The position numbers and the translations under genes were made by a program. The notes under the pieces were generated by a model. The model saw only the letters and a program-made list of their open reading frames with translations. It did no database searches and was not told the origin of the DNA. Positions 45,251 to 60,000 of a DNA stretch of 64,000 bases are shown in pieces (positions within the stretch are counted from its first letter, which is position 1; each line of letters opens with the position of its first letter). The DNA is from Gordonia mangrovi (lineage in GTDB: Bacteria; Actinomycetota; Actinomycetes; Mycobacteriales; Mycobacteriaceae): positions 2,604,001 through 2,668,000 of the forward strand of contig NZ_CP102850.1 of the NCBI RefSeq assembly GCF_024734075.1, written 5' to 3'.

Positions 45251-45266
45251 GTCACCGAGACGTAAC
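45251..45266. promoter_or_regulatory. GlnR-type box candidate
   Basis: GTCAC, 6 bases, GTAAC fits the actinobacterial GlnR a-site/b-site consensus GTNAC-N6-GNAAC exactly. The second a/b pair of a full GlnR motif is not recognisable. It lies 88 bases upstream of an operon that ends with an ammonium transporter, a classic GlnR target. Confidence 0.4.
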
Positions 45267-45354: not shown

Positions 45355-45744
45355 ATGACCGTCGAGAACACCGAGACCGCAGCGGCACCGTTTCTGGTGA
45401 CGAGTGGGGCCTGGGAGAACCTGCCCAAGATGCCGGAGTCGGAGTACCCGGGCACCGAGGGTTTCATCGGTGACGTCTACGAGAACCCGCAGGGCAGCGA
45501 GATGTGCTCGGGCTACTTCGAGCTCCGGCACACCGACGAGCGGCTTTACTACGAATACGAGTACGACGAGATGAAGGTCGTGCTCGAAGGCGAGTTCCTG
45601 CTGGAGAACACGGAGACCGGCCAGACCCAGGTCGCGAAGGCCAAGGACGCCATCTTCTTCCCCAAGGGCTCCAAGATCTACTTCAGCACCCCGAGCTATG
45701 CGCTCGCCTTCTACGCCGGTCACCGCAACGCCGAACTCCTCTGA
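45355..45744 (+). CDS. Cupin-domain protein (EutQ-like), first gene of the N-demethylase operon
   Basis: 129 residues. A single cupin barrel is visible in the second half: YYEYEYDEMKVVLEGEFLLE and AKAKDAIFFPKGSKIYFSTPSYALAFYAGH, similar to EutQ-type cupins. The histidines normally binding metal in the first cupin motif are mostly replaced by Tyr/Glu, so it may be a small-molecule binder rather than a metalloenzyme. The ATG has GAAGGGA upstream. Six bases separate it from the DmmA-like gene. Confidence 0.75.
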   Translation: MTVENTETAAAPFLVTSGAWENLPKMPESEYPGTEGFIGDVYENPQGSEMCSGYFELRHTDERLYYEYEYDEMKVVLEGEFLLENTETGQTQVAKAKDAIFFPKGSKIYFSTPSYALAFYAGHRNAELL

Positions 45745-45750
45745 GGGCTC

Positions 45751-46314
45751 ATGTCGCAGATCACCTACTCCAGCATCCCGATCTGGGCCCGACCTGCGGC
45801 ACCTGTCGATGAGGCGCTGCCCGAGATCTCGGGCAGCGCGTACATCGTCGTCGGTGTCGGGGAGGCCGCCGAGGAGCGGGTGTACCAGGTGGCCAACGGG
45901 CTGCCGGAGAACGTCACCCGCCTCCCGCTCACTTTCGACGACGTCGAGCACGCGGCGAGTGCACTGCGCGGCGAGCTGGCCCACGCACGGGTCGGAGTAC
46001 GGGTGGTGATCATCGCCCCGCGCGGCGCGGCCCTCGCGCTGCGCGGGGTCGCCACCACCGCCGGACTCATGGACGACGAGATCTACGTGACCGTAGCGGG
46101 TGTCGACGCCATCGAGGTGTTCTGTTCACACTGCGAAGCCATCACTCATACCGAGCTCGGGGTCGACGACATCGTCGACTGCGTCGGATGCGGCCGCCAC
46201 CTGCTCATCTACCATCACGTCTCACGACGGTCCGGGCGCTATCTCGGCTTCATGGTCGATGCCGAAACGGCCAGCGCTGCACAAGAGTCCACAACAGAAG
46301 GATCGTCATCGTGA
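45751..46314 (+). CDS. DmmA-like protein (amine N-demethylase accessory subunit)
   Basis: 187 residues. The C-terminal domain has a four-cysteine zinc-ribbon pattern, CSHCEAITHTELGVDDIVDC then CVGCGRHLLIYHHVSRRSG, ending YLGFMVDA. This is the DmmA-like domain of bacterial dimethylamine monooxygenases. A paralogous copy of the same domain is fused to the C-terminus of the HODM-alpha protein at 47297. Its last 4 bases are the GTGA shared with the reductase start. It probably helps assemble or couple the reductase and the heme subunit. Confidence 0.75.
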   Translation: MSQITYSSIPIWARPAAPVDEALPEISGSAYIVVGVGEAAEERVYQVANGLPENVTRLPLTFDDVEHAASALRGELAHARVGVRVVIIAPRGAALALRGVATTAGLMDDEIYVTVAGVDAIEVFCSHCEAITHTELGVDDIVDCVGCGRHLLIYHHVSRRSGRYLGFMVDAETASAAQESTTEGSSS

Positions 46315-47300
46315 CTGTCGCAATCTCCGGCGCAACGCCCGGCGTGACGCGCGCGGAATCCACGACGCTACGACTCGTCGTCACCGCGATCGGCGACGCC
46401 GCACCGGGCATCCGCAACTTCACCTTCGCAGCCCCGGACGGCGCCGAGTTGCCCGGTTTCGTCGCCGGCAGCCACGTGGTCATCGCCGCGGGTGACCGGT
46501 CCAACGCGTACAGCCTCACCGGCGACGGCGTCGCGCCCAGAAGTTACTCGATCTCGGTGCTGCGCCTCGACGACGGATTCGGTGGGTCGCGCTGGATGCA
46601 TGAGATGCTCGCCGAAGGCGATGTCGTCGACGTCGAGATCCCGCGTAGTGCATTCGCTCCCGAGGCGCGCGCCACCAAGCATCTACTCATCGCCGGTGGG
46701 ATCGGGATCACCCCCATCCTGTCGCATCTGCGCGCCGCACGGCGATGGGGCCGGGATGTGCAGGTGCTCTATTCATTTCGTGCGGGTCGGGCCGCCCACG
46801 TCGACGACATCGTCGACCTCGCCGGCGCCCGTGCGGAACTGTTCACCGATCAGCCGGCATTCGTCGACCGTCTCGGCGAGACCCTGATCGATCAGCCGAT
46901 CGGTACCCATCTCTACGTGTGCGGACCTGCGGGGATGATCGACCACGTCGTCGACACCGCCGCCGCGCTCGGCTGGCCGCTGTCACGCATCCACTTCGAA
47001 CGGTTCGGCACCGACGCGCTCGACGCCGGCGACCCGTTCACGGTGCGGCTGACCGAAACCGATACGACACTCGACGTCCCTTCTGGGACATCGGTCCTCG
47101 AAGCGCTGGAGTCGGCCGGGTACGCCATCCCCAACCGGTGCCGGCAGGGCGTCTGCGGCGAATGCCGGCTGCCGTTGGCGGCCGGCGCCGCGGTGCACCG
47201 AGATCTGTATCTGACCGACGAGGAGAAAGGCGCAGGAGATGCGTTCATGCCGTGCGTCTCCCGTGCCGCCGAAGGCGCCACCCTGGAGGTACCGCTGTGA
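46311..47300 (+). CDS. Flavin/2Fe-2S ferredoxin reductase, DmmB/HODM reductase-like (first)
   Basis: 329 residues of the phthalate-dioxygenase-reductase type: flavin-binding barrel (RSNAYSLTGDG, SYSISVLRL), NAD domain (LLIAGGIGITPILSHLRAARRWG, HLYVCGPAGMID) and a C-terminal plant-type 2Fe-2S domain with cysteines in CRQGVCGEC and, about 29 residues on, MPCVSRA. It passes electrons from NAD(P)H to the HODM heme subunit. The GTG start lies within the previous stop (GTGA), and its own stop overlaps the next start likewise. Confidence 0.85.
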   Translation: MTVAISGATPGVTRAESTTLRLVVTAIGDAAPGIRNFTFAAPDGAELPGFVAGSHVVIAAGDRSNAYSLTGDGVAPRSYSISVLRLDDGFGGSRWMHEMLAEGDVVDVEIPRSAFAPEARATKHLLIAGGIGITPILSHLRAARRWGRDVQVLYSFRAGRAAHVDDIVDLAGARAELFTDQPAFVDRLGETLIDQPIGTHLYVCGPAGMIDHVVDTAAALGWPLSRIHFERFGTDALDAGDPFTVRLTETDTTLDVPSGTSVLEALESAGYAIPNRCRQGVCGECRLPLAAGAAVHRDLYLTDEEKGAGDAFMPCVSRAAEGATLEVPL

Positions 47301-48859
47301 CCACCGCTCTGCCCGATTCATCCGTCCCGGATTCGACTCTCGATCCCGCGCTGGTGACCGGATTCCCGTTCCCGTTCGTCGAGGACCGCTACCGCTACAG
47401 CACCAACGTCGAACCCGCCGATCACACCGTGTCGACCGCGGCCGGCCAATGGGGTGATGTCGTGATCGATGTCGACTCCGAGTACCAGACCGAGATCGAT
47501 AAACGCACAGAGGTTCTCGCCGCCGATCCGTCGCGAGCGGCCCTGCTGCCGCACATGCGTCCCGCCGCCTGGGACGCGATGCTCACCATCATGCGGGAAC
47601 TGGCGACCGCCTATCCGGACAAGTTCGCCTTACGCGCCGACGGCGACCAATGGGAGTGGCGCAACAGCAAACTCGGGATCGCCGACACGTTCGTGTACGG
47701 CGATGACACCACGCTGCCCAGCGGCCCGCTGAGCTACATCTGCGGTCAGATCCAGGAAGACGTAGTCCTGCTCGACCAACGCGACGGCCAGCTCTTCGCC
47801 GACGCCGGGGTGGTCACCTTTGCCGCGGACTGGAGCTTCGGCTTCGACGTCGGGATGAGCTTCCTGGAGATCCACGGCCCGGTGCCGCGGGTGCGGAAGG
47901 AGGGGGTGATCACCCGGGCGCATGAGTTCATCAAACGCCTTCAGCCACATCGGCCCTACCGGCGCACCAACTGGACCATGACCATCGGCCGCCGCCTCGA
48001 CGTCTCCACCGAGCGTTACCCGGAGTGGGGTCCGGACCGGGAGCTGATCCGACACGTCGACGACGAGACCTTCGGACGTCTCGTCCACCTGCGGGTCGAG
48101 GTGCAGCATCTGATCCGCCTGCCGGACTCCGGTGCGGTCATGTTTCTCATCCGCACCTACATGCTGCCGCTGGATGCTCTCGCGACCGTCGAACCCTGGC
48201 GACTGCGTACCGCCGAGGTCGTCGACGAACTGCCCGACGACATGGCTGATTACAAGGGCATCATCAAATACCGTGCCCGGGTGGCGCAATGGTTGCGAGC
48301 AGCCGGCACGCCGCCGCCGGACCCCGAGCCGACGCTGGACGAACGACCCGGCGACGGTCTGCCCGCATGGCCGACAGACCCGGATCCGATCGATTCGGCC
48401 GCATCGACATTCCTGATCGTCTCCGTCGGGGACGAACCGCGCACCGGCGACGTGGCCGCCCAGTGGGTGAGTGCAGCCGAGGCGATCGGCCGAACCCACC
48501 TGCTCGTGCTCGACACGCTGACGCGTGAGGAGGACCTTGCCGCCCTGCGGACGGCGCTGAGCGCGGTGAGTACCGGCGTTCGCATCCACATCGTCGGTGG
48601 TCAGTACGACGTGCTGACCGCGCTGGCCATTACGCGTGAATGCGGTGCCGTGGATACCGAGCTCTCGGCCTTCGTCGTGCACACCCGTGACCTGCCCGTG
48701 TACTGCGCGCAGTGCCGGAACCTCTTCCGCGGCGAGGGAATACCGGGAGGAACCCTGGACTGCCCCGGATGCGCCCGCACGCTCGAGGTGCATCCGCATC
48801 ACTCGGCCGCCCTCGGCGGGTTCCTCGCCTCGTCGGCAGAACCGGGAGCACCCGCGTGA
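47297..48859 (+). CDS. HODM alpha-like heme-dependent N-demethylase fused to a DmmA-like domain
   Basis: 520 residues. Residues 1 to about 350 are a HODM alpha-subunit-like domain (PF11927, formerly DUF3445): FPFPFVEDRYRYSTNVEP, GDDTTLPSGPLSYICGQIQ, FDVGMSFLEIHGPVPR and VQHLIRLPDSGAVMFLIRTYM. After a proline-rich linker (about 352-370) comes a second domain, STFLIVSVGDEP to GGFLAS, carrying CAQC and CPGC pairs, paralogous to the DmmA-like protein at 45751. The family oxidises secondary or tertiary methylamines, releasing formaldehyde. A one-piece catalytic plus accessory subunit beside separate versions of both is unusual. Confidence 0.8.
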   Translation: MTTALPDSSVPDSTLDPALVTGFPFPFVEDRYRYSTNVEPADHTVSTAAGQWGDVVIDVDSEYQTEIDKRTEVLAADPSRAALLPHMRPAAWDAMLTIMRELATAYPDKFALRADGDQWEWRNSKLGIADTFVYGDDTTLPSGPLSYICGQIQEDVVLLDQRDGQLFADAGVVTFAADWSFGFDVGMSFLEIHGPVPRVRKEGVITRAHEFIKRLQPHRPYRRTNWTMTIGRRLDVSTERYPEWGPDRELIRHVDDETFGRLVHLRVEVQHLIRLPDSGAVMFLIRTYMLPLDALATVEPWRLRTAEVVDELPDDMADYKGIIKYRARVAQWLRAAGTPPPDPEPTLDERPGDGLPAWPTDPDPIDSAASTFLIVSVGDEPRTGDVAAQWVSAAEAIGRTHLLVLDTLTREEDLAALRTALSAVSTGVRIHIVGGQYDVLTALAITRECGAVDTELSAFVVHTRDLPVYCAQCRNLFRGEGIPGGTLDCPGCARTLEVHPHHSAALGGFLASSAEPGAPA

Positions 48860-49845
48860 CCGCCACGGTCGAGCCGGTTGCCGGTCATCTGTATGCCGGC
48901 TATTCGACTGGCCCGCGCCAGATGCCGGTGATCGGAGTCCACCGACTGACCGCCGACATCATGCACATTCGCTTGGCACCCGCCGACGGGACGGGTCCTG
49001 CTCCCTATCAGCCGGGCAGCCATCTGATCGTCACCGCCGGCGCTCATCGCAACGCCTATTCGCTCGTCGACGACGGCTTCTTGCCCGACAGCTACGGCGT
49101 CTCGGTGTTGCGGCGGGGCGCCGGTGGGGGATCGGAATGGTTGCACGACAACGTCTCCGAAGGTGCCGTGCTCGAGGTCGAGGGGCCGAGGTCGATGTTC
49201 GCGCCTGTCTGGAACCAGCGCCACATGCTGCTGGTCGCCGGCGGTATCGGGATCACGCCGATCCTGTCGCACCTACGGTCGGCGGTGCGTCGTCGGACAT
49301 CGGCGGAGGTCATCTACTCCTACCGTGCCGGTGCTGCTGCTCACCTCGACGAGCTACGGGAACTGGCTTCGCATACCGGTATCACCCTGTTCGAAGTGTC
49401 GGGAGCGGCGGACACCCGCCGGTTGCTCGCCGACCGGATCCACCGCCAGCCCCTGGGCACGCACGCCTATGCGTGCGGTCCGATCGCTATGCTCGACGCA
49501 TATGTGGATGCCGCCGCGACTGCGGGATGGCCGCCATCGCGGGTGCATCTGGAGCGTTTCACCGCTCCGGCGCAAGACCCGGGGGAGCCGTTCACGGTCA
49601 CCGTGGCCTCCAGCGGACGACGCATAGACATCCCGGCCGGTGTGTCGATGCTGCAAGGGCTGCTCGGCAACGGTGTTCGGGTGGCGAATCTCTGCCGCCA
49701 AGGCGTGTGCGGCGAGTGTCGGGTGCCGGTCCGTTCCGGAGACGTCGAGCACCGTGACTTCGTTCTGACCGACGACGAGCGCGCCGCCGGCGACAGCATG
49801 CTGTGCTGCGTCTCGCGCGGCCACGACATCGAGGTGGACCTGTGA
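48856..49845 (+). CDS. Flavin/2Fe-2S ferredoxin reductase, DmmB/HODM reductase-like (second)
   Basis: 329 residues, same length and layout as the first reductase: RNAYSLVDDG, LLVAGGIGITPILSHLRSA, HAYACGPIAMLDAYVD and the 2Fe-2S cysteines in CRQGVCGECRVPV and SMLCCVSRG. The two are clearly paralogues but differ across most surface positions, so they may serve different heme subunits. GTGA overlaps join it to genes on both sides. Confidence 0.85.
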   Translation: MTATVEPVAGHLYAGYSTGPRQMPVIGVHRLTADIMHIRLAPADGTGPAPYQPGSHLIVTAGAHRNAYSLVDDGFLPDSYGVSVLRRGAGGGSEWLHDNVSEGAVLEVEGPRSMFAPVWNQRHMLLVAGGIGITPILSHLRSAVRRRTSAEVIYSYRAGAAAHLDELRELASHTGITLFEVSGAADTRRLLADRIHRQPLGTHAYACGPIAMLDAYVDAAATAGWPPSRVHLERFTAPAQDPGEPFTVTVASSGRRIDIPAGVSMLQGLLGNGVRVANLCRQGVCGECRVPVRSGDVEHRDFVLTDDERAAGDSMLCCVSRGHDIEVDL

Positions 49846-50864
49846 CGATCACTCCTCACCCCAGCGACACCCCGGCAGCGATGGCGTCGGGTGTCGATCA
49901 TCTCGCGAATCTGCCCTGGCCGTTTCCCGATGATCTCGAGCAGTTCCGCTATAGCGTGAACGTGGAGCCGGCGCGGGCGCCCCGCGCAACCCGTGGTGGC
50001 GAATGGGGCAGGCACATCGTCGATCTCGGGGGTGTCGAGTATCCGATGATCATGGCTGAGCGTCGGCGGATTCTGGATGCCGACCCGCATCGGGTCAAGA
50101 TCCGGCCCGGCATGGAAACGGCGTGCTGGGATCTGCTGCTGTACTACCTGCGCGATCTGGCGTTGAGTCATCCGTCGGTGATGCATCTGACGGAGCATAC
50201 GCAGCAGCGATTCCATTGGCGCAATGACCTTCTCGGCACCGACCAGTTCTTCGTTCTCGGCGACGACGCGACGCTTCCGTGCGGCCCGCTGGAGTTCCTC
50301 GCCCGCGAAGTGCCCGACGATCTGCTGTTGGTGGTCGAACGCGACGGCCACCTGTACTTCGATGCCGGAGCGGTCACGTTCGCGGCGGCCTGGTCGGTCT
50401 CGTTCGACGTCGGCATGGATATGTACGAGATCCATGCCCCGGTGCCTGGTCTGACCCGCCAGGGGATTGTGGCGCGCGCCGAGCAGTTCCTGAGACGACT
50501 GCCCTCCGACGAGGTCTACCGCCGCGTGAACTGGACGCTGTCGGCGTCGGATTCGGCGAAGCTCGACGTCAGTCTCGAAGAGTTGCCGGCGTGGGCCGAC
50601 GACATCGGGCAGATGGTGCGCGAACGCGACTTCGGTCGCGCGCGCCTGCGCATCGAGTTGGAACACTTCATCCGGCTGCCCATGACCGGTGCGGTCACGT
50701 TCAACATCCGCACGTTCATGGCCTCACTCGACGAGATCAAGCGGATTCCGGCGTGGGCGCACCAACTCGCGACCGTGATCGAGACCCTGAGCGAACCGAT
50801 CGCCGCCTACAAGGGCTTTCTGGACTATCGCGATGACGTCGTCGCCTTCCTGCGCGCGAACTAA
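49842..50864 (+). CDS. HODM alpha-like heme-dependent N-demethylase (second, unfused)
   Basis: 340 residues, paralogue of the first half of the protein at 47297. Shared blocks are LPWPFPDDLEQFRYSVNVEP, LGDDATLPCGPLEFLAREV, FDVGMDMYEIHAPVPG, VYRRVNWTLSASDSAKLDVS and LEHFIRLPMTGAVTFNIRTFM. It lacks the DmmA-like C-terminal domain. The N-demethylase substrate range of this copy may differ. Its stop is followed 32 bases later by the ammonium transporter, with AAGGA before that start. Confidence 0.8.
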   Translation: MTITPHPSDTPAAMASGVDHLANLPWPFPDDLEQFRYSVNVEPARAPRATRGGEWGRHIVDLGGVEYPMIMAERRRILDADPHRVKIRPGMETACWDLLLYYLRDLALSHPSVMHLTEHTQQRFHWRNDLLGTDQFFVLGDDATLPCGPLEFLAREVPDDLLLVVERDGHLYFDAGAVTFAAAWSVSFDVGMDMYEIHAPVPGLTRQGIVARAEQFLRRLPSDEVYRRVNWTLSASDSAKLDVSLEELPAWADDIGQMVRERDFGRARLRIELEHFIRLPMTGAVTFNIRTFMASLDEIKRIPAWAHQLATVIETLSEPIAAYKGFLDYRDDVVAFLRAN

Positions 50865-50896
50865 CCCTGTCCGACAGCACCACCAAGGATTCTTGA

Positions 50897-52246
50897 ATGG
50901 AACCCATACTCGCCGCGAACGCCGACCTGGCGTGGATGCTCGCGGCCTTCGTCTTCGTCTTGCTGATGTTTCCCGGCCTCGCCCTCTACTACGGGGGCAT
51001 GGTGGGGGCGCGCAACGTGCTGAACATGATGACCATGGTGATGGTCACCCTCGGCATCACCAGCGTGCTGTACGTGCTCTATGGCTACGGACTGGTGTCG
51101 GGTCCGTCGGTCAACGACTGGGGACTCATCGGTAACCCGATGGACTACCTAGGCCTCGGCTCCAACATGTCCGACGACGGGTCCGGCAACACCCAGGTGC
51201 TCTACTTCGCCGCCTGGTTCATCCTGTTCGCCGCCATCACCGTCGCCATCGTCGCCAGTGGCGCGGCCGGCCGGATGAAGTTCTCCGCCTGGATGGTTTT
51301 CGCGCCGGTCTGGCTGACACTGGTCTACTTCCCGGTGGCACACTGGATCTTCGCCGCTGACAGCGACGGCATCAGCGGTGGTTTCCTGTTGAACGACATC
51401 GGTGTCCACGACTACGCCGGCGGCACAGCCGTGCACATGAACTCCGGGGTGGCAGCGCTGGCGCTCGCGCTGGTGCTCGGTGCGCGGCGCAAGCGCATGG
51501 AGCGGCCCCACAATGTGCCGATGGCCCTGCTGGGCGGTGGCATTCTCTGGTTCGGCTGGTTCGGGTTCAACGGCAGCTGCGCGCTCGGCGCCAGTTTCCT
51601 CACCCAGGTCGTCATTCTCAACACCCTGTTGGCCGGTAGCGCAGGCATTCTCGGCTTCGCGGCGATCGAGCGGTGGCGGGAAGGGCACGTGACGTCACTG
51701 GGCGCCATCACCGGTGCCGTCGCCGGCCTCGTGGGTATCACCCCGGCAGCCAACACGATGACCCCGCTCGGCGCGCTCGCGGTGGGTCTGCTCGCTGCCG
51801 GTGTGGTGGCCTTCCTGCTCAGCTTCAAGAGTCGGATGAAGGTGGACGACACCCTCGACGCGTTTGCCGTGCACGGCGTCGGCGGCATCGTCGGCACCCT
51901 GTGCATCGTGCTCTTCGCGTCCGACTCTGCCCCGGCAGGGGTGGCCGGCATCCTGTTCGGCGGCGACATCGGCATCCTCTGGAAAGAACTGGCCGGCATC
52001 GTCATCACCTGCACGTATTCGTTCGTGATGACGTGGCTGATCGCCAAGGGACTGGACAAGGTGATGACGCTACGCGTCGACGAGGAGACCGAGGTGACCG
52101 GCCTGGATTCGACCATCCACGCCGAGACCGCCTACGAGATCCCGGCTGCCGGGGTGGGGCACGCGCCGGGTTTGATCGCACGCGTCCCGCCGACGGTCGG
52201 TCCTTCGGCTGCCGGGACTGCGGAGCCGGAGCCGGTGTCCACGTGA
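50897..52246 (+). CDS. amt: Ammonium transporter (Amt)
   Basis: 449 residues, eleven membrane helices. Signature VHDYAGGTAVHMNSGVAALALALVLGARR contains the conserved Asp and the first twin histidine, and FAVHGVGGIVGTLC the second. It carries ammonium or ammonia inward. As the last gene of the amine operon it suggests that the pathway is used to obtain nitrogen, either directly or by recapturing released ammonium. A strong hairpin follows at 52270-52304. Confidence 0.94.
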   Translation: MEPILAANADLAWMLAAFVFVLLMFPGLALYYGGMVGARNVLNMMTMVMVTLGITSVLYVLYGYGLVSGPSVNDWGLIGNPMDYLGLGSNMSDDGSGNTQVLYFAAWFILFAAITVAIVASGAAGRMKFSAWMVFAPVWLTLVYFPVAHWIFAADSDGISGGFLLNDIGVHDYAGGTAVHMNSGVAALALALVLGARRKRMERPHNVPMALLGGGILWFGWFGFNGSCALGASFLTQVVILNTLLAGSAGILGFAAIERWREGHVTSLGAITGAVAGLVGITPAANTMTPLGALAVGLLAAGVVAFLLSFKSRMKVDDTLDAFAVHGVGGIVGTLCIVLFASDSAPAGVAGILFGGDIGILWKELAGIVITCTYSFVMTWLIAKGLDKVMTLRVDEETEVTGLDSTIHAETAYEIPAAGVGHAPGLIARVPPTVGPSAAGTAEPEPVST

Positions 52247-54046: not shown

Positions 54047-55240
54047 TCACCGCATCTCGCCGGCCCCCTCATACGGGTTCAGGCTCAGCAACAGATCGCC
54101 CTCGGCGAATCGGGAGTGCCGGAAGTCTCGGGGGTCGACGTTCTTCAGCGTCGTGGAGCCGCTGAGCAGCAGATCGGCGACGAGTTTGCCGACGGCGGGG
54201 GAGATCTTGAAGCCGTGACCGGAGAATCCGGTCGCCAGGAACAGCCCGTCGACCGGCGCGGGGCCGATGATCGGGTTGTAGTCCGGCGTCACGTCGTAGG
54301 CGCCGACATAGCTGCTGGTGATCCGCGGATCCGGCATGTCGGGCAGGCGATGCCCCGCCTTCATGATGATCTTGTCGATGGTGGACTCGTCGGCGCGGTT
54401 GATGTAGTTGTCCGGATCGATGTACTGCGGCGCAGAGTGATCCGAGTTCCCCATCAGCAGTTCGCCGTTGGGTTCGCGACAGATGTAGGACAGGCCCGCC
54501 AGATCGGAGAGCACCGGCACCACCGGGGTCGGCTCGCCCTGATCGATCAGCACGAGCTGCGCGCGCTGTGCGCGCACGTCGACCGGCACGCCGACCGGCT
54601 CGGTGAGTGCCGGGGTCCACGGGCCGGCCGCGACGATCACCGTGTCGGCGTAGATGGTGTCCCCGTTGGCCAGTGCGGCGCCGACGACGCGTCCGTCGTC
54701 ACCTTGCAGGAGCTCGGTCACCGTCGTCGACTGGCGGACCTTCACGCCGAGCTTGCGGGCCGCGGCAGCGAACGCCATGCCGGCCATATAGGCCTCACCA
54801 CGCCCGCCGAGCGGCTCGTAGGCGAAGGCGGCGAAGTCGTCGAGGTGCAGACCCGGCCACAGCTCGGCCATCGTGTCGTGGCCGATGAAGTCGACGTCGA
54901 TGCCGAGACCTTGCATCATCTCGACGTTCGCGCGCAACGGGCCGACGTTGTTCTCGCCGACACCGACCACGTAACCACATTGCTGGAAAGCCATGTCGTC
55001 ACCGAACAATTCCGTTGCGCGGGTGAAGATGTCGACGCCGTACCAGCTCATCGCGGCCAGCGACGGGTTGCCGTAGTGGCAACGGACGACGCCGCTGGAC
55101 TTGCCGGTCATCCCGGAGCACAGCGTGTCCCGTTCGACGACGAGGACGTCGGTCTCGCCCTGATCGGCCAGCGACCAGGCGATGGCGAGGCCTTCGAGGC
55201 CGCCGCCGACGATGAGGAAACGTGTGGTGGTGGGGGTCAT
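54047..55240 (-). CDS. FAD-dependent amine/amino-acid oxidase (sarcosine oxidase beta / DadA-like)
   Basis: 397 residues of the DAO family. FAD fold FLIVGGGLEGLAIAWSLADQG, then KSSGVVRCHYGNP where sarcosine oxidase-like enzymes bind flavin, and the C-terminal NPIIGPAPVDGLFLATGFSGHGFKISPAVGKLVADLL. It oxidises an N-methylated or secondary amine to an imine with O2 or another acceptor. It is the third gene of the HutD-amidohydrolase-oxidase operon. ATG 55240 is used; GTG 55252 is possible. Confidence 0.88.
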   Translation of the reverse strand: MTPTTTRFLIVGGGLEGLAIAWSLADQGETDVLVVERDTLCSGMTGKSSGVVRCHYGNPSLAAMSWYGVDIFTRATELFGDDMAFQQCGYVVGVGENNVGPLRANVEMMQGLGIDVDFIGHDTMAELWPGLHLDDFAAFAYEPLGGRGEAYMAGMAFAAAARKLGVKVRQSTTVTELLQGDDGRVVGAALANGDTIYADTVIVAAGPWTPALTEPVGVPVDVRAQRAQLVLIDQGEPTPVVPVLSDLAGLSYICREPNGELLMGNSDHSAPQYIDPDNYINRADESTIDKIIMKAGHRLPDMPDPRITSSYVGAYDVTPDYNPIIGPAPVDGLFLATGFSGHGFKISPAVGKLVADLLLSGSTTLKNVDPRDFRHSRFAEGDLLLSLNPYEGAGEMR

Positions 55241-55286
55241 GGGTGAGTTCACTTTCCGTGGGTCAAGGGTGGGGTAGAGGTGTGTT

Positions 55287-58166: not shown

Positions 58167-58197
58167 GTGGCGAGGATTCGTGACGAAGGAGAACACC

Positions 58198-60000
58198 GTG
58201 GGTAGATCTGTCCGAATCGACGAGGGTCCCTGGAGCGGTGCGCCTTTTGTGGTGCGTGTCCGACGCTCGGGGCAGCTCGGCATCATCGAGCGAGGGACGC
58301 CTGACGATGTGCCCGTCGAACTGGTCCGACTGGCTACCGCGATGTTCCGGACGTCCCTGACGAAGTGCAGTTTCCTCTGGCGCCCCAACTCCGATGCCAT
58401 GTTGTGTCGGGTCACCGTGGAACTGCACACCGACGGCAGTGTCGATCACGTTCTCCTCGCTGGTGAACAGATCACCGAGCTTCCGCACGGCCTGTCGGGT
58501 CGCGAACTCGAAGTGCTCACTCTCCTTGTCACCGGACGCGGAAACGTGCAGGTGGCCGAGGACCTGTTCATCTCGGACCGGACTGCGGCATCGCACATCA
58601 AGAACGTCCTTCAGAAACTGGGAATGCCGACGAGAACGGCCGCCGCCACGTATGCGCTCGACGCGGGTCTGCTGCAGGTGCCGCTGCCGGGCGCCACCGA
58701 GTACTACGCCAAGTTGTCTGTCGGTCGACTCGTGCGCGCCGCGGCGGTAGACCAGTCGAGCACCGTTTCCACGCACCGCCGCCCGTCGGCGCCGGGGATC
58801 ATCCACCGGCGGCGTCGCAAGCTCGTGGTCGGGGCTGCGGTCCCGCGCACCGGCCTCGGTCGCGACGACGGACGCGAGATGCTCAACGGACTTCAGCTCG
58901 CCATGGATGAGATCAACGCGGCCGGCGGTGTTCGAGGGCGTGAGGTCAAACCGCTGTTGGTCGATGTCGACGTCACGTCATCGGTGTCGGTGAGGTCGGC
59001 ATTCGATCAGCTTCTCAGCGGCGGCGCCGACGTACTGACCTCGGGGTATCTCGCGGCCCAGGACGTCGCTCACGAGATCGCCGGCGACTCCGGAATCCCG
59101 TATCTGCACGCAGCCACCAGCGGCGTCATGGAACGCGCTGTCCAAAATGACCTGGGACGCTTCGGCCATGTGTTCCAGGTCTGTGCCAGCGACACGAGCT
59201 ATGCGCCGGCCTTCGTCTCGTACATGCAGTCGCTGTGCGATGCCGGCCACTGGCGTAGTCCCTCGAAACGTCTTGTGGTGCTGCAAAAGAACTGGAGTCA
59301 CGTCGACTTCGGTGTCTCGGCAGCCGCCTCGCTGGCCGAGGAGTCGGGCTGGCAGCTCGAGGTGGTGCCCGTCACCGGTTCGAATGCTGATGGCGGATGG
59401 GCCCGGGCCGTACAACAGGCATTGACCGAACCCGCGGCCGCGGTGATGATCGGCAGCTACTTCGTCGAGGACGTCGAGCAAGCGGTTCTGGCCTTGCACG
59501 ACTCCGGTTCGCCAACGCTCGCATATGCAATCTATGCACCCTCCGTGCCGGCGTTCCGGGACCGCCTCGGTGCTGCCGCCGAAGGAGTCCTCTGGGCGAC
59601 GATGACCGGGACCTATTCGGACACTCGCGGTGTGGCGTTCAGCCGCCGCTACACTCGCCGCTTCGGTGTCCGCCCGGGACGCTCGCACGCCGGCCTCGCC
59701 TACGATCGCATGCACCGCATCGCGTTGGCGTGGCGGATGTCGGAGGATCTCACCGATCCCGGCGAGGTGGCCACGGCGTTGCGGTCGCATCCCTATCGAG
59801 GGGTGAACGGCACCTACAACTTCGACACGCCCGGGCAGGCGGCGCAGGGCTTTGCGGGTCCTGTCGGTGATCCCTCGCTGGCCCAACCGCAATTGATCTT
59901 CCAGATCCAGGACGGCGCCCAGGTGATCGTGAGTGGGGGACCGTTCACGACCGGAGAGTTCCGTCTGCCCGGGAGTCTCGAGATGTCCTCCGGTCGCTAG
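58198..60000 (+). CDS. LuxR-type HTH fused to a periplasmic-binding-protein-like sensor domain
   Basis: 600 residues from GTG 58198, chosen because AAGGAG lies 6 bases upstream (GTG 58180 is the alternative). After about 95 uncharacterised residues comes a LuxR/GerE helix-turn-helix, GLSGRELEVLTLLVTGRGNVQVAEDLFISDRTAASHIKNVLQKLG (about 98-143). From about residue 209 to the end is a type I periplasmic-binding fold of the amide/branched-chain amino acid class: GREMLNGLQLAMDEINAAGGVRGREVKPLLVD and AVMIGSYFVEDVEQAVLA. No signal peptide or membrane helix is visible, so this looks like a soluble one-component sensor, comparable in logic to AmiC plus AmiR in one chain. Confidence 0.85.
   Translation: MGRSVRIDEGPWSGAPFVVRVRRSGQLGIIERGTPDDVPVELVRLATAMFRTSLTKCSFLWRPNSDAMLCRVTVELHTDGSVDHVLLAGEQITELPHGLSGRELEVLTLLVTGRGNVQVAEDLFISDRTAASHIKNVLQKLGMPTRTAAATYALDAGLLQVPLPGATEYYAKLSVGRLVRAAAVDQSSTVSTHRRPSAPGIIHRRRRKLVVGAAVPRTGLGRDDGREMLNGLQLAMDEINAAGGVRGREVKPLLVDVDVTSSVSVRSAFDQLLSGGADVLTSGYLAAQDVAHEIAGDSGIPYLHAATSGVMERAVQNDLGRFGHVFQVCASDTSYAPAFVSYMQSLCDAGHWRSPSKRLVVLQKNWSHVDFGVSAAASLAEESGWQLEVVPVTGSNADGGWARAVQQALTEPAAAVMIGSYFVEDVEQAVLALHDSGSPTLAYAIYAPSVPAFRDRLGAAAEGVLWATMTGTYSDTRGVAFSRRYTRRFGVRPGRSHAGLAYDRMHRIALAWRMSEDLTDPGEVATALRSHPYRGVNGTYNFDTPGQAAQGFAGPVGDPSLAQPQLIFQIQDGAQVIVSGGPFTTGEFRLPGSLEMSSGR

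Follow-up and report, generated by a model that had tools for sequence, protein, structure and literature searches.

HODM, a heme-dependent amine N-demethylase, is reportedly a PAS fold turned enzyme, and to our knowledge it has one known substrate, dimethylamine (DMA). The structures 5LTE, 5LTH and 5LTI represent the HODM alpha subunit of the dimethylamine enzyme from Pseudomonas mendocina. The related dimethylamine monooxygenase DmmABC has been described in Ruegeria, Methylocella, Paracoccus and Aminobacter; its native size is about 210 kDa, subunit masses are also given, and dmmABC alone is active in E. coli (PMC5520151). Monomethylamine, the product of DMA oxidation, is assimilated through gmaS-mgsABC, and a cluster resembling gmaS-mgsABC has been described in mycobacteria (PMC5023230). 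One step earlier, the known route from trimethylamine (TMA) to DMA consists of Tmm and Tdm.

The locus described here lies in a 64,000-nucleotide stretch of the Gordonia mangrovi genome (the window; positions 2,604,001 to 2,668,000 of contig NZ_CP102850.1). Among the named genomes compared, Gordonia tangerina and other Gordonia are nearest to it. Seven open, co-directional genes occupy positions 45355-52246, and neighbouring genes mostly overlap by 4 bases. The family of every product was assigned by Pfam and NCBIfam profile searches, with cut-offs of 25 bits for PF11927, 60 bits for NF041259 and 343.3 bits for TIGR00836. The two heme subunits are called HOD1 and HOD2 (HODM-alpha 1 and 2), set 1 comprising DmmA1, RED1 and HOD1 and set 2 comprising DmmA2, RED2 and HOD2.

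45251..45266 (+): predicted GlnR-like box GTCAC-n6-GTAAC, 8/8 fixed positions, 104 bases ahead of the first gene
45355..45744 (+): EutQ-like cupin that opens the operon (PF06249, 47.4 bits)
45751..46314 (+): DmmA1, set-1 DmmA-family subunit (NF041259, 106.9 bits); in the DmmA1 clade with single-set enzymes
46311..47300 (+): RED1, set-1 flavin/2Fe-2S reductase (NAD_binding_1, Fer2, PF22290)
47297..48859 (+): fusion protein of HODM-alpha 1 and DmmA2 (PF11927, 222.9 bits, residues 54-329; NF041259, 85.9 bits)
48856..49845 (+): RED2, set-2 flavin/2Fe-2S reductase (Fer2, NAD_binding_1, PF22290); RED2 clade, 100% support
49842..50864 (+): HODM-alpha 2, belonging to a second, deep-branching subfamily (PF11927, 192.2 bits; clade support 100%); model matches 5LTE
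50897..52246 (+): ammonium transporter, Amt (TIGR00836, 403.7 bits)

A preliminary description had read the region as two head-to-tail sets of a DmmA-like domain, a reductase and a HODM-alpha domain, opened by a cupin, closed by an ammonium transporter and akin to HODM and DmmABC. The profile searches bear this out, placing the products that start at 47297 and 49842 in the HODM family, both DmmA-like domains above the NF041259 cut-off, and all three DmmABC subunit types in each set. The closest solved structure is 5LTE for both HOD1 and HOD2, and phthalate dioxygenase reductase (2pia) for RED1. As in DmmABC (see Rhizobium etli p42e), DmmA comes first, followed by the reductase and then HODM-alpha, and gmaS and N-methylglutamate genes lie near by. 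Unlike DmmABC, the Gordonia operon has two sets, a fusion, an Amt gene and a GlnR-like box. First place is taken by the cupin in actinobacterial operons, where it was found at 51 loci, whereas in Rhizobium it is taken by a GcvT-type gene. The Ruegeria operon likewise includes a GcvT-type dmmD as an accessory feature that the Gordonia operon lacks, and among the actinobacterial loci only L131 had a GcvT gene near by. Mycobacterial single-set loci (L077 to L106) carry no cupin, and a distant Amt-family gene on the opposite strand, about 28% identical to that of the window, adjoins them.

Two sets are not peculiar to this genome. Among 59 Gordonia genomes, 33 carry PF11927, 31 of them in two copies, and other actinobacteria have two sets in two gene orders. 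Three layouts were distinguished in named genomes. The first, a single set, is found in Rhodococcus, Williamsia, Nocardia, many mycobacteria and one Gordonia. In the second, set 1 precedes set 2 (order 1-2); the fusion is confined to Gordonia, and the genes are separate in several Nocardioides, Prauserella, Mycobacterium sp. NAZ190054 and G. jinhuaensis. The third has two unfused sets in the order 2-1 and occurs in Nocardioides, Millisia and Aeromicrobium. The two-set system is real and conserved; what is new in it is the existence of a second subfamily and of a fusion across the sets.

The term 'duplicated operon' holds insofar as two complete sets are present, but not in the sense of recent copying. 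HOD1 and HOD2 are 43% identical, and the HODMs, the reductases and the DmmAs each split into clades common to several genera, which rules out a recent tandem duplication. The HOD2 sequences fall into a single clade (SH-aLRT 100) whose stem measures 1.69 changes per column, while 5LTE, the proteobacterial DmmC-type proteins, HOD1 and every single-set enzyme lie on the opposite side of the HODM tree. The set-1 heme subunit therefore groups with characterised enzymes and that of set 2 falls outside their clade, so that set 2 is filed as a relative within PF11927 only and not as DmmABC. RED2 (100) and DmmA2 (99) are also single clades, these support values, like that of HOD2, coming from quick searches. 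In the reductase tree RED2 branches within the actinobacterial radiation on a short stem (0.65), which suggests that the whole set doubled inside Actinobacteria and that HOD2 then changed rapidly, although long branches are not placed with certainty.

Despite this divergence HOD2 is no degenerate copy. In an alignment spanning Proteobacteria to Actinobacteria, all family-invariant residues are retained in both HOD1 and HOD2, including the sole invariant histidine (194, 5LTE sequence numbering). An AlphaFold2 model of HOD2 (pLDDT 88) has the same predicted fold as the HODM alpha subunit, with a Z of 36.5 to 5LTE (rmsd 2.2 across 317 residues) and of 36 to 5LTH. Given the kept residues and the 5LTE-like model, HOD2 has probably not lost its catalytic activity, and it may plausibly have changed substrate. 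At 19 positions HOD1 and the single-set enzymes are fixed one way and HOD2 another, for example F29W, H87G, Q152E, D179A, F190M, Y242L, Q268E and R302Q (HOD1 to HOD2, in 5LTE numbering taken from a phmmer alignment), of which deeper HOD2 members share part only; they may reflect a changed pocket in HOD2. These differences bear on the proposal that both sets oxidise DMA and differ in affinity, stability or regulation only, with the fusion a neutral product of joined overlapping genes. We regard this as improbable, as several of the 19 positions are aromatic or charged, the HOD2 stem is long compared with the 0.65 of RED2, and the fusion is kept throughout the Gordonia loci described below.

We consider it reasonably probable that the operon is a nitrogen-scavenging methylamine module in which set 1 is a DMA monooxygenase and set 2 a further active demethylase whose substrate is a different small amine, perhaps TMA. 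The set-1 reductase would transfer NAD(P)H electrons via flavin and the 2Fe-2S cluster to the heme PAS-fold subunit, which would convert DMA and O2 to monomethylamine and formaldehyde. Monomethylamine would then enter the N-methylglutamate pathway through GmaS and MgsABC. Set 2, with its altered conserved residues, would be a second competent demethylase with a different small-amine substrate, the favoured and most readily tested guess being TMA, whose conversion to DMA would supply set 1 with substrate. The two enzymes would be kept together in Gordonia by a flexible linker between the heme subunit of set 1 and the DmmA of set 2. If this is true, a further subfamily, widespread, equipped with a reductase and a DmmA of its own and kept beside the first always or nearly always, would show that the scaffold took on another substrate.

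The preliminary description had left two options for the doubled sets, a hetero-oligomer or action on two successive substrates. In its stronger form the first would be an obligate hetero-oligomer with one trimer per set, specialised halves, a pairing enforced by the fusion and perhaps one regulatory heme subunit. The size of about 210 kDa of the known enzyme (PMC5520151) fits two copies of each of three subunits, HOD1 and HOD2 adjoin in 37/37 two-set rows compared, and the DmmA carried by the fusion is a set-2 one. Still, set 1 stands alone at 45 loci, the two sets are unfused outside Gordonia, and set 2 owns a complete reductase and DmmA, with all invariant residues present in both heme subunits. 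The complete genome G829, from another genus of the family, has a cupin, a RED1-type reductase, DmmA2 and HOD2 (L156, 4389-7756), and HOD1 was not found in that genome. At a further locus, in G758 (L153, 365-4783), two HODMs and two DmmAs are served by a single reductase and followed by a DAO gene. Together G829 and G758 show that HOD2 can do without HOD1 and that DmmA2 goes with HOD2, and reductases may be shared between sets. Obligate pairing of the heme subunits is therefore disfavoured and we hold it unlikely, although a tethered complex in Gordonia is possible. Two successive substrates fit the invariant residues of both heme domains and the solitary HOD2 of G829 better, the substrates themselves being proposed from sequence.

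The fusion had been described as a second DmmA-like domain on the C-terminus of the first HODM-alpha, and it is indeed a single frame of 520 codons. HOD1 spans about residues 15-336 and DmmA2 about 370-515, separated by a linker of ~36 residues. The fused frame is present in 29/29 two-set Gordonia loci checked at the DNA level, which rules out a sequencing artefact or frameshift. In the window sequence the 36-residue linker contains no in-frame ATG, GTG or TTG, and the nearest candidate starts lie N-terminal of it, at residues 329 and 333 only; synthesis of a separate DmmA2 by re-initiation is hence not obvious. In the predicted structure two confident domains flank a linker disordered at 342-350, and a pTM of 0.65 implies that their mutual position is not fixed. 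The fused DmmA belongs to the DmmA2 clade, and DmmA2 pairs with HOD2, so that in Gordonia HOD1 is fused to the subunit that partners HOD2. From the sequences, it is two different enzymes that are linked together. In comparison with 5LTE, then, HOD1 shares its clade and carries an additional C-terminal DmmA2 domain, while HOD2 is a separate deep subfamily. The fusion points to the subunits at which the two oxygenases may contact each other.

Elsewhere, in Nocardioides, Prauserella and others, inspection of the reading frames shows HOD1 and DmmA2 to be separate genes. Where the genes are separate, for instance in the relatives L071 and L072, the stop of HOD1 runs into the start of DmmA2, and a single indel could therefore join the two. 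This overlap, like the variable linker (25 to 48 residues across fusions), favours the neutral origin assumed if both sets oxidise DMA, and the persistence of the fusion in all 29 loci speaks against it. Mapped on the HOD2 tree, gene order requires a single change and the fusion two changes, as expected if the fusion arose once in Gordonia and was lost, or is misplaced, in G. jinhuaensis.

A role for the operon in methylamine nitrogen use, within the module favoured above, gains weight from its surroundings. Downstream of the locus in over 30 relatives lie a gene resembling type III glutamine synthetase and genes for a glutamine amidotransferase, a GXGXG protein and a glutamate-synthase-like protein, the composition of the monomethylamine assimilation cluster gmaS-mgsABC. 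This cluster adjoins the operon in most relatives and lies 19 kb downstream of it in G. mangrovi, at 2675682-2680021. Across Gordonia, gmaS occurs in 33/33 HODM-positive genomes and 1/26 HODM-negative ones (Fisher p 9e-16, kinship ignored), a co-occurrence that ties the operon to monomethylamine. Within the window, a SoxB-like FAD oxidoreductase (DAO) at 54047-55252 (-) is 52% identical to the gene following mgsC in L071 and could be a remnant of the N-methylglutamate pathway near the operon.

For the step from TMA to DMA the evidence is indirect. The Tmm-Tdm route would, like the proposed set 2, supply DMA to the same pathway, but set 2 shows no sequence relationship to Tmm, and the route was not found in the G. 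mangrovi genome. Using a Tmm query checked against 2VQ7 and 5GSN, Tmm was absent from all 33 HODM-positive Gordonia, and full-length Tdm was not found in any Gordonia searched. Tdm matches in 55 Gordonia covered the GcvT part only, at 30-36% identity, and were discarded. The known TMA-to-DMA route thus being missing from HODM-bearing Gordonia, set 2 becomes a candidate for the step, by elimination only, since the missing Tmm and Tdm are no proof of TMA use. True Tmm is present in 11 Gordonia, 0/11 with HODM or gmaS. Mutual exclusion was set aside as functional proof because these 11 also lack gmaS, and their Tmm probably serves something else. In one Gordonia without HODM the Tmm gene spreads over two frames with an internal stop (G431:C51:36862-38189). 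Outside Gordonia, Tmm was found in 5/20 single-set and 1/14 two-set genomes, which are small numbers; the two-set genome L078 has Tmm, which tells against the favoured module, though it also has a second, single-set HODM.

Two narrower proposals for set 2 follow. In one, HOD2 demethylates the tertiary amine TMA, giving a one-family series from TMA through DMA to monomethylamine without Tmm or Tdm, with the steps held in one complex by the fusion in Gordonia. Many soil actinobacteria without Tmm and Tdm would thereby gain a route for a common odorous, climate-relevant amine, but in this full form the proposal seems doubtful to us. In the other, marginally easier to accept yet still tentative, the amine lies outside the TMA-DMA series and may be an N-methylated ethyl or hydroxyethyl amine or a breakdown product of an osmolyte. 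No gene of the neighbourhood points to TMA. Further, gmaS was not found in the G829 and G758 genomes, both of which carry deep HOD2 types; this weighs against the favoured module, as those enzymes may serve another pathway there. The other two-set loci, in contrast, adjoin the monomethylamine pathway or share a genome with it, which speaks against a substrate outside the series.

Regulation by nitrogen supply would also fit the favoured module. The motif GTNAC-n6-GNAAC, the GlnR box consensus of actinobacterial GlnR work, matches at 7/8 positions or more on the same strand in 21/22 Gordonia loci, 12 of them perfectly. The boxes lie mostly 83-159 bases upstream of the cupin match. A lone 7/8 match is reached by 8-22% of shuffles, so that the weight rests on their constant place. 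The M. smegmatis ChIP motif AC/T-n9-AC (PMC3662644) agrees with this consensus. Judged by this motif, the operon is probably turned on by GlnR under nitrogen limitation.

A different type of regulator is encoded further along the window. At 58180-60000 (+), one frame combines a LuxR-type GerE helix-turn-helix (residues 105-159) with a Peripla_BP_6 ligand-binding domain (216-554). Its neighbours are an isopropylmalate-dehydrogenase-like gene and a penicillin amidase gene on the opposite strand, and it is unusual for a regulator to contain a periplasmic-binding fold.
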